DNA of 64,000 nucleotides. It comes from Streptomyces sp. VRA16 Mangrove soil (GTDB lineage Bacteria; Actinomycetota; Actinomycetes; Streptomycetales; Streptomycetaceae). The DNA lies in assembly GCF_017377775.1 (NCBI RefSeq), contig NZ_JAFVLN010000018.1, positions 1 to 64,000 of the forward strand, given 5' to 3'. Made by a program: the position numbers and the translations under genes. The first letter of the stretch is position 1. Every line of letters begins with the position of its first letter. Of this stretch, positions 4,884-12,607 are shown piece after piece. Under the pieces are notes generated by a model. The model had not been told where the DNA came from, made no database searches, and worked only from the letters and a program-made list of their open reading frames with translations.

Positions 4884-4946
4884 CCGGCGGGAGTCCAATG
4901 AATACGTAGCAACGAACCGGTCGAACAGATGGGGAAGGTGCCGCAG

Positions 4947-7217
4947 ATGACTGCCACTCCCGCAGAGAAGACGACGCACGGCGAGGCCTGGGAGGGCTTC
5001 AAGGGGGGCCTGTGGCGCGACGCCATCGACGTCCGTGACTTCGTCCAGCAGAACTACACCCCCTACGAGGGCGACGGCTCCTTCCTCGCGGGACCGACCG
5101 AGCGCACGACGGCCATGTGGGACCGGCTCCTCGGCATGTTCCCCACGGAGATCGAGCGCGGCATCTACGACGTGGACGCCAAGACGCCGTCGCGCATCGA
5201 CGCCTTCCGGCCCGGCTACATCGACGGCGACGCCAAGGACCACAAGGACCTCATCGTCGGCCTGCAGACCGACGCCCCGCTGAAGCGCGCGATCATGCCG
5301 AACGGCGGCTGGCGCATGGTCGAGGGCGCCCTCAACGCCTACGGCTACGAGGCCGACCCCGAGGTCAGGGAGATCTACACCCACCTCCGCAAGACCCACA
5401 ACGAGGGCGTCTTCGACGCGTACACCCCCGAGATCCGCGCCTGCCGCTCCTCCGGCATCATCACCGGTCTGCCCGACGCCTACGGCCGCGGCCGGATCAT
5501 CGGCGACTACCGCCGCGTCGCCCTCTACGGCGTCGACCACCTCATCGCCGCCAAGCAGGCCGACAAGGACAGGGCCGGCGCCGAGTGGCCCTCCGAGCAC
5601 GTGATCCGCGACCGCGAGGAGATCTCCGAGCAGATCAAGGCGCTGAACGAGCTGAAGGCCATGGCCCTGTCGTACGGCTACGACATCTCCGGCCCGGCCC
5701 GCACCGGCCGCGAGGCCGTGCAGTGGCTCTACTTCGCCTACCTCGCCGCCGTGAAGGAGCAGAACGGCGCGGCCATGTCGATCGGCCGCATCGACAACTT
5801 CCTCGACATCTACCTGCAGCGCGACATCGAGGCCGGCCTCATCACCGAGGAGCAGGCCCAGGAGTTCATCGACGACTTCGTCATCAAGCTCCGCATCGTC
5901 CGCTTCCTGCGCACCCCCGAGTACAACGACCTCTACTCCGGCGACCCGACCTGGGTGACCTGGTCGATGGCCGGCATCGGCGAGGACGGCCGCCCGCTCG
6001 TCTCGCGCACCACCTTCCGCGCCCTGCAGACCCTCTACAACCTCGGCCCGGCCCCCGAGCCGAACCTGACGGTCTTCTGGTCGCGTGAACTGCCGCGCGG
6101 CTTCAAGGACTTCGCCTCCCAGGTCGCCATCGACACCTCGGCCATCCAGTTCGAGTCCGACGAGCTGATGCGCCCCAAGTACGGCGACGACACCGCCATC
6201 GCCTGCTGCGTCTCCGCGATGGCCGTCGGCAAGCAGATGCAGTTCTTCGGCGCCCGCGTGAACGTCGCCAAGGCGCTCCTCTACGCGATCAACGGCGGCC
6301 GCGACGAGAAGTCCGGCAAGCAGGTCGTCGAGGGCTTCGAGCCCATCGAGGGCGAGTACCTGGACTACGAGACCGTCGCCGCACGCTACGACGCGATGCT
6401 CGACTGGCTGGCGAAGACGTACGTGCACGCGCTCAACGTCATCCACTACATGCACGACAAGTACGCCTACGAGCGCATCGAGATGGCCCTGCACGACCAG
6501 GAGATCCTGCGCACCATGGCCTGCGGCATCGCGGGTCTGTCGGTGGCCGCCGACTCCCTCTCGGCCATCAAGCACGCGAAGGTCAAGGTGATCCGTGACG
6601 AGACCGGACTCGCCGTCGACTACGAGATCGAGGGCGACTACCCGGCCTACGGCAACAACGACGACCGCGCCGACCGGATCGCCAAGTCGATCGTGCACGG
6701 CTTCATGGAGAAGGTCCGCAAGCACCCGACGTACCGCGACGCGGTCCACACCCAGTCGGTGCTGACGATCACCTCGAACGTCGTCTACGGCAAGAAGACC
6801 GGCAACACCCCGGACGGGCGCCGCGCCGGCACCCCGTTCGCCCCCGGTGCCAACCCGATGAACGGGCGCGACGAGCACGGCTACATCGCCTCCGCGCTGT
6901 CGGTCGCGAAGCTGCCCTACGACGACGCCGAGGACGGCATCTCGCTGACCAACACGATCACCCCGGACGCCCTGGGCCGCACCCCCGAGGAGCGGATCGG
7001 CAACCTCTCCGGTGTGCTCGACGGGTTCATGGCCAGCGACGGCTTCCACATGAACGTCAACGTCCTCAACAAGGCGACCCTCGAGGACGCCATGGAACAC
7101 CCGGAGAACTACCCGCAGTTGACCATCCGGGTCTCCGGCTACGCGGTGAACTTCGTCCGTCTGACGCGCGAGCAGCAGCTGGACGTCATCAACCGCACCT
7201 TCCACGGCTCCCTCTGA
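4947..7217 (+). CDS. pflB: formate C-acetyltransferase (pyruvate formate-lyase)
   Basis: Glycyl-radical enzyme that cleaves pyruvate with CoA to acetyl-CoA and formate, normally active only without oxygen; cytoplasmic. The 756-residue protein matches the usual PflB size. The catalytic Cys pair is in IACCVSAM (C420, C421) and the radical glycine is in RVSGYAV (G731) near the C terminus. The start at 4947 was chosen because GGGAAGG sits 8 nt upstream; that ribosome site overlaps the alternative ATG at 4929, which has none of its own. pflA follows 96 nt downstream. Rex control is suggested by the operator at 4743-4762. A fermentative enzyme like this is unexpected in a largely aerobic genus. Confidence 0.95.
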
Positions 7218-7313: not shown

Positions 7314-8117
7314 ATGACCGTGCTGCTCACCCAGAACCTGGCCGCGAACGACGCCGCCACCCCGGCCGCCGCCGCGACGCACCGCCCCACCGAGGGCTCG
7401 GTGCACTCCTGGGACCTGTCGACCGGCGTCGACGGACCGGGCACACGCTTCGTGACGTTCCTCTCCGGCTGCCCGCTGACCTGCCTGTACTGCCACAACC
7501 CCGACACCTGGCGGATGCGCAACGGCAAGCGCACCTCGGCCGACGCCATCGTCGCGGAGGCCGCCAAGTACACCCGCTTCATCGAGGCGGCGGGCGGCGG
7601 CGCCACGATCAGCGGCGGCGAGCCCCTGCTCCAGCCCGTCTTCGCCGGTGAGCTGCTGCACCGCTTCAAGAACGAGCTGGGCCTGCACACCGCCCTGGAT
7701 ACCTCGGGCTTCCTCGGGGTGCGCGCCACCGACGCCCTGCTGCGCGACGTGGACCTGGTCCTGCTCGACATCAAGTCCTGGGACCGCGACACCTACAAGA
7801 AGGTCACCGGGCGGCCCCTGCGCCCCACCCTGGACTTCGCGCACCGGCTCGCCGACCTCGGCAAGAACGTCTGGGTGCGCTTCGTGCTCGTCCCCGGCCT
7901 CACCGACGACCCCGCCAACATCGAGGGCGTCGCCGCCTTCGCGGGCTCCCTCGGCAACGTCTCCCGGGTCGACGTGCTGCCCTTCCACAAGCTCGGCGAG
8001 GCGAAGTGGGAGGCGCTCGGCAAGAACTTCACGCTGCACGACACGCCCTCGCCCACCCCCGAGCAGGTCGCCACCGCCAAGTCGATCTTCGAGGCCCACG
8101 GCCTCACGGCGGTCTGA
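7314..8117 (+). CDS. pflA: pyruvate formate-lyase activating enzyme
   Basis: Radical-SAM enzyme that installs the glycyl radical on PflB using a 4Fe-4S cluster and S-adenosylmethionine; cytoplasmic. The 267-residue protein carries the cluster motif CPLTCLYC (C53, C57, C60), a GGEP motif in ISGGEPLL, and the WVRFVLVPGLTDD segment typical of PflA. The start has GAGGAG about 10 nt upstream. Its place just downstream of pflB, presumably on the same transcript, identifies the substrate. The N-terminal 20 residues or so are Ala/Thr-rich and not conserved. Confidence 0.94.
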   Translation: MTVLLTQNLAANDAATPAAAATHRPTEGSVHSWDLSTGVDGPGTRFVTFLSGCPLTCLYCHNPDTWRMRNGKRTSADAIVAEAAKYTRFIEAAGGGATISGGEPLLQPVFAGELLHRFKNELGLHTALDTSGFLGVRATDALLRDVDLVLLDIKSWDRDTYKKVTGRPLRPTLDFAHRLADLGKNVWVRFVLVPGLTDDPANIEGVAAFAGSLGNVSRVDVLPFHKLGEAKWEALGKNFTLHDTPSPTPEQVATAKSIFEAHGLTAV

Positions 8118-9505: not shown

Positions 9506-9658
9506 GTGATCGCAGGGGGCCCGAGGGGGCCGAGCCGGGCACCGCGCCCGTCTCGCCGACCACCCTCCGCCACCGTCCGCGATCCCGCTGACCGCCGTGC
9601 ACTACCCACCGGTTGTGGACAACTCCCTCACCCGAACCGGGAGTCCCGCACCCCTGGC

Positions 9659-9718
9659 CTTGATCCCGGCCTTGATCCGGGCCTCGATCCCGGCCCCGAT
9701 CCGGGCCTCGATCTCGGC
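9659..9718. repeat. five tandem 12-bp repeats
   Basis: Five contiguous 12-mers of the form CYYGATCYSGGC: CTTGATCCCGGC, CTTGATCCGGGC, CTCGATCCCGGC, CCCGATCCGGGC and CTCGATCTCGGC. Each unit contains the self-complementary GATC. Intergenic, 29 nt before a different repeat block. Confidence 0.85.
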
Positions 9719-9747
9719 CCCGGCCTCAGTCCCGGCAACCTCATGCC

Positions 9748-9873
9748 GCAGACCGCAGACCGCAGACCGCAGACTGCAGACTGCAGACTGCAGACCGCAG
9801 ACTGCAGACCGCAGACTGCAGACTGCAGACCGCAGACCGCAGACCGCAGACTGCAGACCGCAGACCGCAGACC
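9748..9873. repeat. eighteen perfect 7-bp tandem repeats (GCAGACY)n
   Basis: Eighteen back-to-back heptamers GCAGACC or GCAGACT, differing only at the last base (order C C C T T T C T C T T C C C T C C C). A degenerate tail with GCAGATCACAGA and CACAGAC units extends to about 9950. A 7-bp period cannot keep a reading frame, so a coding role is unlikely. This is a candidate variable-number tandem repeat. Confidence 0.95.
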
Positions 9874-9973
9874 GCGGTCGGCAGATCACAGATCAGAGAC
9901 CGCAGACCGCAGTCGGCAGATCACAGACCACAGACCACAGACCACACACCTCAGCCCCCACCCCGAACAGCGA

Positions 9974-10828: not shown

Positions 10829-10869
10829 GGCCAGCACACTAGCCAAGCGGACCGGCGCGAAAGACGCCC

Positions 10870-10901
10870 GAGACCCTGTCGTCGAGGGACGACAGGGTCT
10901 C
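10870..10901 (-). terminator. strong hairpin terminator after the FmdB-family gene
   Basis: Perfect 14-bp stem, GAGACCCTGTCGTC (10870-10883) with GACGACAGGGTCTC (10888-10901), and a GAGG loop, 17 nt beyond the stop of the minus-strand zinc-ribbon gene and upstream of mtnP. Confidence 0.85.
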
Positions 10902-10918
10902 GTAAGACGTGCGAGGTC

Positions 10919-11245
10919 CTAGGCGGCGGAGGACGAGCTCGAAGAGCTCGACGAGGCCGTCGAGGACGAGGAAGACGAGGACGACTTCGTGTCGGAGGAC
11001 GACGAAGAGGTCGACTTCGTGTCGGAGGACGACTTGGCCGGCGACGCCGGGCTGCTGCTCGACGACGAGCCGCGGCTGTCGTTGCGATAGAAGCCGGAGC
11101 CCTTGAACACGATGCCGACGGCCGAGAACACCTTCTTCAGGCGGCCACCGCAGTTCGGGCACTCGGTCAGAGCGTCATCGGTGAACTTCTGCACCGCCTC
11201 GAGGCCCTCGCCGCACTCGGTGCACTGGTACTGGTAAGTCGGCAC
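10919..11245 (-). CDS. FmdB-family zinc-ribbon protein with poly-Ser tail
   Basis: A 108-residue protein. Residues 1-50 form the FmdB/CxxC zinc ribbon (MPTYQYQCTECGEGLEAVQ, then CPNCGGRLKKVF). The rest is an unstructured tail with long serine runs broken by DTK and AKS. FmdB was named as a putative regulator of formamidase, but the family's true role is unknown. The GTG start at 11245 has AGGAGG upstream. A CIRCE-like dyad sits immediately upstream (11258-11284), which suggests heat-shock control by HrcA. Confidence 0.85.
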   Translation of the reverse strand: MPTYQYQCTECGEGLEAVQKFTDDALTECPNCGGRLKKVFSAVGIVFKGSGFYRNDSRGSSSSSSPASPAKSSSDTKSTSSSSSDTKSSSSSSSSTASSSSSSSSSAA

Positions 11246-11257
11246 TGTGTCTTCCTC

Positions 11258-11284
11258 CTGGCACTCTCACTCAATGAGTGCTAA
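11258..11284 (-). promoter_or_regulatory. CIRCE-like element (HrcA operator) before the FmdB gene
   Basis: Read on the minus strand: TTAGCACTC-N9-GAGTGCCAG. The canonical CIRCE is TTAGCACTC-N9-GAGTGCTAA, so the left arm is perfect, the spacer is exactly 9 nt, and the right arm matches 7 of 9. It ends 12 nt before the GTG start and abuts the ribosome site, so bound HrcA could block expression. Confidence 0.7.
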
Positions 11285-11314
11285 CGACGCTCCATAGTGG
11301 CCTATTCCACGGGA

Positions 11315-12607
11315 TCAGTCCACTGCCACCGGCACTCGGTGACCGACACCACGTGCCACGGTCCGGCCCGCGGACGGCGGTACGAGCCGCGAGCGCAGCA
11401 GGAACATGACCACCAGGGCGAGCACGGTGCCCCCCATGGGGACCAGGAATCCGGCCCCGTCCCAGAAGCGGTCCTCCAGCTGTCCGGCCACTGTCACGGC
11501 GGCCGCCTGACCGAGCGCGACGGCGCCGGTGAGCCAGGTGAAGGCCTCCGTGCGGGAGGTCGCGGGCACGATCTTCTCGACCAGCGTGTAGCCGGTGATC
11601 AGGGACGGCGCGATGCAGACGCCGACCAGCAGGCCGAGCCCGGCGAGCACCACGACGGACTGCGCGGCCCACAGCCCTGACGCGGTGACGGCGAGCGCCG
11701 TGTAGCCGGTCAGGAGGCGCCGCTGCGGGGAGATCTTCCAGGCGACGGCGCCGCAGACCAGGCCGGACAGCATGTTGCCCGCGGCGAAGATCCCGTACAG
11801 GACGCCGTTCAGACCGGGCTGTCCGATCGCCTCGGAGTAGGCGGCGAGCGAGACCTGCATGCCGCCGAAGACGGCGCCGATGCCCAGGAACGTGACGATC
11901 AGGACGCGCACGCCGGGCACCCGCAGCGCGGAGGAGTGCTCCACGCGCGCGTGCTCCTCAGCGCTGCCCACCGGGGGCTGGGTGCGCTTCTGGGCGGCGA
12001 ACAGCAGACCGCCGACCAGGGTCAGCGCGGCTTCGGTGACGAGTCCCGCGGCCGGGTTGATGCCGGTGCACAGCGCGGTGGCGAACAGCGGGCCGAGCAC
12101 GAACGTGAACTCGTCCGTGACCGACTCGAAGGCCGCCGCGGTCTGCAGCAGGGGCGAGCCCTGGAGCTTCATGCCCCAGCGGGCCCGCACCATGGGGCCG
12201 ATCTGCGGGGTGGAGGCACCGGTGGGCACGGCGGCCAGGAACAGGGTCCAGGTCGGCGCCCCGGACAGGGCCAGCACGGTCAGGGTGAGTCCGGCGGCCG
12301 AGTGCACCAGGACACCGGGCACCAGTACGGCCCGCTGCCCGAAGCGGTCGGCCAGCTTGCCGCTGTAGGGCGCGAAGAGCGCCATGGAGACACCGGTCGC
12401 CGCGGAGACGGCGCCCGCGGTGCCGTAGGAGCCGGTGGTGTGCTGTACGAGCAGCACGATCGAGATGGTCAGCATCGCGAACGGCTGGCGCGCGGCGAAG
12501 CCGGGCAGCAGGAACGTCCAGGCTCCGCGGGTGCGCAGCAGCTGTCCGTAGCCGGGGCGCTTGGCTCGCCCCTGGTCGGATCCGGTGACCGTGGCCTTCT
12601 GTGGCAC
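11315..12607 (-). CDS. MFS transporter
   Basis: Major facilitator superfamily permease, about 430 residues with some 12 hydrophobic segments. The signature between helices 2 and 3 is visible as GKLADRFGQRAVL. Substrate unknown; the size and fold resemble drug or metabolite efflux carriers. The start is uncertain: the GTG at 12607 has AAGGCGAGG just upstream and gives MPQKATV, while a GTG or ATG near 12664 would add 19 Arg/Gly-rich residues that look non-coding. Same strand as the FmdB gene, but the CIRCE-like dyad separates them. Confidence 0.82.
   Translation of the reverse strand: MPQKATVTGSDQGRAKRPGYGQLLRTRGAWTFLLPGFAARQPFAMLTISIVLLVQHTTGSYGTAGAVSAATGVSMALFAPYSGKLADRFGQRAVLVPGVLVHSAAGLTLTVLALSGAPTWTLFLAAVPTGASTPQIGPMVRARWGMKLQGSPLLQTAAAFESVTDEFTFVLGPLFATALCTGINPAAGLVTEAALTLVGGLLFAAQKRTQPPVGSAEEHARVEHSSALRVPGVRVLIVTFLGIGAVFGGMQVSLAAYSEAIGQPGLNGVLYGIFAAGNMLSGLVCGAVAWKISPQRRLLTGYTALAVTASGLWAAQSVVVLAGLGLLVGVCIAPSLITGYTLVEKIVPATSRTEAFTWLTGAVALGQAAAVTVAGQLEDRFWDGAGFLVPMGGTVLALVVMFLLRSRLVPPSAGRTVARGVGHRVPVAVD

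Follow-up and report, generated by a model that had tools for sequence, protein, structure and literature searches.

A predicted HrcA operator fused to a sigma-R-type promoter upstream of a probable ruc gene in Streptomyces

In Streptomyces, a gene for an FmdB-type zinc-ribbon protein appears to be governed by two stress regulators. The region upstream of it is best read as the control region of a streptomycete ruc, subject to HrcA repression and sigma-R induction, and the combined analysis of gene, operator, promoter and homologues gives this reading a probability of about 0.88. The window (the whole stretch of DNA analysed, 64,000 nt long) carries a conserved CIRCE-type dyad before the gene, with a promoter sequence of the sigma-R/SigH type running into it; the same genome has an hrcA and a sigR-type gene, and the product combines an FmdB-type domain with a tail composed largely of serine. 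The central idea has already been published for the ruc gene of Mycobacterium tuberculosis, which supports regarding the interpretation as largely known. What is added here is the proposed extension to Streptomyces, the distribution of the predicted operator at the level of families, and its apparent contact with -10 elements.

The predicted HrcA operator, TTAGCACTC-N9-GAGTGCCAG, lies on the minus strand at 11258..11284 (11284..11258 when read toward the gene). On the gene's strand its left arm, TTAGCACTC, matches CIRCE at 9/9 positions, the spacer is 9 nt long, and the right arm, GAGTGCCAG, agrees with GAGTGCTAA at 7/9 positions, giving 2 mismatches in 18 against the consensus TTAGCACTC-N9-GAGTGCTAA. 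This is the dyad that an earlier note on this DNA had described, down to its one perfect arm, its spacer and the seven matches in the other arm; the note placed it immediately before the start codon, and 12 nt indeed separate the end of the dyad from the GTG start of the FmdB-type gene. The Shine-Dalgarno sequence AGGAGG (11254..11259, minus) has two bases in common with the right arm, the last two of the dyad. At up to 3 mismatches, the dyad is the sole CIRCE match in the window, and 100 dinucleotide shuffles produce none.

The candidate promoter is directly fused to this operator. Read along the minus strand, the order is GGAAT, 18 nt, GTT, the CIRCE dyad, AGGAGG and the GTG of the 108-aa FmdB-type protein. 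GGAAT (11304..11308), the predicted -35 element, has a mean major-base frequency of 0.99 across 121 loci, and the predicted -10 element, GTT (11283..11285), shares its TT with the operator, whose first two bases they are. Written as GGAATA-N17-GTT (11308..11283, minus), the sequence fits the sigma-R/SigH consensus GGAAYR-N17-GTT, which is that printed for SigH of M. tuberculosis (PMC4803200). A second, housekeeping-type promoter may also be present: CACTAT (11294..11299, minus) is a faint candidate for its -10 element, picked out by eye and partly conserved in Streptomycetaceae, and TGGACT (11317..11322, minus), likewise chosen by eye and 17 nt from CACTAT, is a possible -35 element. As TGGACT runs into the stop codon of the MFS gene upstream, its conservation may reflect coding.

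The regulators that these sites call for are encoded in the same genome. A single match to hrcA is found (E 1.5e-58). Sigma-factor matches number 32, one of which exceeds the cut-off of the SigH/sigma-R model TIGR02947, and a GGAAT-N18-GTT sequence stands about 0.3 kb before the domain match of that gene. The whole genome (9.75 Mb) contains five CIRCE sites at up to 3 mismatches, as compared to none in the reversed control; the four others are arranged as tandem pairs, two sites ahead of groES-groEL and two ahead of a second groEL. These groE sites share the dyad type and the 9-nt spacer with the FmdB-gene site and differ from it in being paired, the latter being single. The two groE stretches, scanned on the coding strand, contain no GGAAY-N17-19-GTT. 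The contig that bears hrcA in this genome shows no CIRCE at up to 3 mismatches; in three other genomes (G034, G062 and G115) a CIRCE lies about 0.4-0.6 kb before the HrcA domain match, which suggests hrcA autoregulation there. The earlier note's proposal that the FmdB-type gene belongs to the heat-shock regulon gains support from the conserved dyad and the one hrcA; it is not new, given M. tuberculosis ruc, and it overlooked the sigma-R-type promoter.

The distribution of the operator was assessed by scoring upstream stretches of up to 400 nt against TTRGCASTC-N9-GAGTGCYAR, with up to 3 mismatches counted as presence; the 400-nt limit is needed, as the sites in two genomes (G447 and G115) are missed at 150 nt. 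Within Streptomycetaceae, CIRCE precedes the gene at 121/121 loci, the window's own among them, and all 18 arm positions are invariant across these loci, among which 109 different sequences occur over 106 nt. Conservation in this family is high throughout the region (a mean of 0.82 upstream, about 0.9 in N18 and 0.88 at third codon positions), so that invariance within the family proves, on its own, less than it seems. The spacer of the dyad (11267-11275) is conserved there as well, with 7/9 positions above 85% of the 121 loci, and adds a third GAGTG; it is much more variable in other families. Same-genus loci carry the operator without exception (30/30 in the class search, the window's own counted, and 15/15 in the order search), as do 80/80 named loci, which are the best 80 of at least 587 and comprise 75 from Streptomycetaceae and five others, one labelled Acidimicrobiaceae MAG. 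A strict pattern detects 107/150 same-genus genomes, a lower bound since three of the unmatched ones (G035, G050 and G076) do carry the dyad; the 30 loci from that strict-pattern search (L040-L069) stand outside the re-scored counts.

In the rest of the class, outside Streptomycetaceae and the named set, the operator is present at 116/143 loci: 48/52 in other families, 36/38 in family f4, 11/11 in two other families of the order and 21/42 in a supplementary set. The f4 set takes in every genome of its search with a match, the two other families of the order are represented by 11 of 14 matches, and the supplementary set unites 30 loci mostly from lower-scoring families with 12 others, nine of them from the mixed family f22. 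The loci are a hand-picked spread, some possibly of the same species, and the class search itself matched 291/296 genomes. Among the 27 class loci that lack the operator are all those of families f21 (6/6) and f31 (3/3), f22 being mixed. Control windows in the named loci yield 0/480 sites at up to 3 mismatches and 6/480 at 4, and one locus with 4 mismatches (L362) is counted as lacking the operator because control windows also reach this score; in two supplementary scans, most scores fall at 0-2 or at 5-8 mismatches, which makes presence easy to tell from absence. The 48/52 of the higher-scoring matches would, taken alone, overstate the case for the class as a whole, given the supplementary result; judged from sequence, the association between operator and gene is widespread in the class and not universal. 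Conservation of the dyad upstream of homologues, which the earlier note had proposed as a check, thus holds across Streptomycetaceae and at most other class loci; outside the class it falls to 7/59 loci, hand-picked and mostly better matches from 125 genomes with a match. Loss of the operator in the wake of HrcA loss was also considered and is not supported: hrcA is found in 22/22 genomes tested, including six without the operator at the FmdB-type gene, so a genome can retain HrcA and still lose the link.

It is hardly credible that the dyad plays no part in regulation and owes its palindromic form to chance or inheritance: general conservation of the region within Streptomycetaceae, and nothing else, speaks for this view, and it is opposed by the empty shuffles, the empty control windows and the positive majority of class loci outside the family. 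Nor is the dyad likely to work chiefly at the RNA level, as a hairpin in the 5' leader, hiding the Shine-Dalgarno sequence or setting mRNA stability, a reading that we consider very improbable. In favour of this reading, the dyad shares bases with AGGAGG, should be part of the transcript and allows a 6-bp stem, whose six pairs are intact at 121/121 Streptomycetaceae loci; the full invariance of the arms in this family, taken alone, fits a function in DNA and a function in RNA equally. The other families are more telling, as the pair at left base 7 is broken without compensation at 38/59 of their loci and, in f4, the pair at left base 9 at 15/36; such uncompensated changes of inner pairs point to a protein-DNA site instead of an RNA stem. 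The folding is ordinary as well (z -0.84, with 36/200 shuffles as good), and the distance from dyad to start codon ranges from 10 to 147 nt in other families. The RNA reading is rejected on account of the uncompensated arm changes and the ordinary folding.

A further alternative accepts the operator as real and HrcA-bound and treats the sigma-R promoter as vestigial or due to chance, with transcription solely from TGGACT-N17-CACTAT and a response to heat but not to thiol stress. Its candidate promoter is partly conserved in Streptomycetaceae. In other families, a housekeeping-type -10 hexamer, [TC]ANNNT, has the first T of CIRCE as its last base at 43/59 loci versus 6/826 background hexamers, and the fused sigma-R register is found at 0/48 of their CIRCE-bearing loci, 0/11 loci of sister families and 0/42 loci of the supplementary set. 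On the other hand, GGAAT-N18-GTT (up to 1 mismatch) holds the same register at 30/30 and 15/15 same-genus loci, at 74/80 named loci (the six exceptions are the five from outside Streptomycetaceae and L222, where the spacing is 19) and at 17/38 loci of f4, and the M. tuberculosis ruc is reported to be SigH-dependent (PMC4803200). Weighing these observations, we regard transcription from the housekeeping-type promoter alone as unlikely.

If ruc is indeed under the dual control of HrcA and sigma-R, the order of events may be sketched as follows, with repression, release, induction and chaperone activity carried over from M. tuberculosis and general knowledge. HrcA would bind the CIRCE dyad and block the overlapping promoter; since the -10 trimer GTT reaches into the operator, repressor and polymerase would compete for the same bases. 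Heat or unfolded protein would remove HrcA, and thiol-oxidative stress would free sigma-R to read GGAAT-N18-GTT. The product, a zinc-ribbon protein whose Ser-rich tail is presumably disordered, would lose its zinc on oxidation, and the oxidised form would hold unfolded proteins and hand them to the DnaK system.

Across families, the operator tends to contact a predicted -10 element while the apparent class of the promoter differs. A broader proposal, to which we give slightly less than an even chance, is that the ruc CIRCE constitutes a fixed module in the class: its first T residues would serve as the end of the -10 element, and the promoter class would have been swapped around it, being of the housekeeping type in most other families examined and of the sigma-R/SigH type in Streptomycetaceae and part of f4. 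By this proposal ruc would work as a two-input gate, opening only when HrcA is released and sigma-R is active as well, and separate lineages would have arrived at it in identical register. A G before CIRCE suffices to make GTT, so repeated origin of the sigma-R form would be easy.

The gene itself (10919..11245, minus) encodes a Ruc-like protein of 108 aa, assigned by its domain profiles, cysteines and tail. It matches TIGR02605 at 75.1 bits (cut-off 31.3) and Zn_ribbon_8 at 58.1 bits (cut-off 34.4), its only cysteines are at positions 8, 11, 29 and 32, and 33 residues of its 50-residue tail are Ser, all of which bears out the description of an FmdB-type protein with a poly-Ser tail given in the earlier note. 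The CxxC-CxxC arrangement is present in 147/147 homologues, and named relatives are up to 98% identical across the zinc ribbon; no relative with a solved structure is found at E up to 0.1. The tails of homologues are alike in composition and unlike in sequence, averaging 50% Ser over the 144/147 that are complete, with few hydrophobic residues except Ala. Two homologues in f4 (L144 and L147) are almost tail-less, with open frames of 69 and 70 aa and a homologue of 65 aa in L147, and are without CIRCE, tail and operator being absent together. The genome also has a second, shorter FmdB-type gene on contig 38 (L007:1405-1611, G000), a contig that carries none of the five CIRCE sites.

Downstream of the gene, a terminator-like hairpin of 15 bp (10869..10902, minus) folds with -34.9 kcal/mol over a 58-nt stretch (z -5.96); with this hairpin at its 3' side, the gene is probably transcribed alone, as a monocistronic mRNA. 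Next downstream lies a gene for S-methyl-5'-thioadenosine phosphorylase. Elsewhere in the window, the plus strand encodes a pyruvate formate-lyase (4929-7217; TIGR01255, 1154 bits) and its activating enzyme (7314-8117; TIGR02493), two enzymes that usually go with an anaerobic way of life and that stand here in an apparent Streptomyces genome, and about 30 copies of the 7-bp repeat CCGCAGA (9746-9954) adjoin a 12/24-bp repeat at 9656-9722.

Searches of the open-licence literature, which leaves most subscription journals outside, find no paper that joins FmdB with HrcA, none that joins FmdB, heat shock and Streptomyces, nothing under the locus tag SCO3187 and, among the papers listed, no catalogue of sigma-R targets in Streptomyces; given this coverage, we make no claim to be the first to describe the Streptomyces case. 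The analysis puts a protein whose sole annotation is 'FmdB family zinc ribbon protein' in a likely proteostasis regulon of Streptomyces and many related families, and the work on M. tuberculosis Ruc is therefore probably relevant far outside the mycobacteria. Harmless laboratory strains would also provide a two-signal promoter open to testing, predicted to respond to heat and thiol oxidation, and the gene is a case of an operator that seems to hold its place while families differ in the sigma-factor class of the promoter next to it.

The best-described counterpart is Rv0991c (Ruc) of M. tuberculosis, which is reported to be a redox-activated chaperone directly repressed by HrcA; its level goes up on heating and in an hrcA mutant, and its SigH and HrcA sites overlap (PMC7448276). 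In a table of SigH-dependent genes/expression, Rv0991c stands at 40.3 +/- 12.2 (PMC4803200). Oxidised Ruc keeps proteins from aggregating and assists the DnaK system; it requires its tail, and the cysteines mutated are C8, C11, C29 and C32 (PMC7448276). Compared through this published description, the window gene is a probable Ruc relative: both proteins have their zinc ribbon at the N-terminus, its cysteines lying at 8, 11, 29 and 32, followed by a hydrophilic, apparently disordered tail, and just upstream of both genes a predicted or known HrcA site overlaps a promoter of the SigH type. They differ downstream, where the window has a hairpin whereas M. tuberculosis has Rv0990c directly (PMC7448276). 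Redox-regulated chaperones of the Hsp33 type share with Ruc zinc-binding cysteines and the logic of an oxidation-activated holdase, yet, as the same paper states, they have no sequence similarity to it (PMC7448276).
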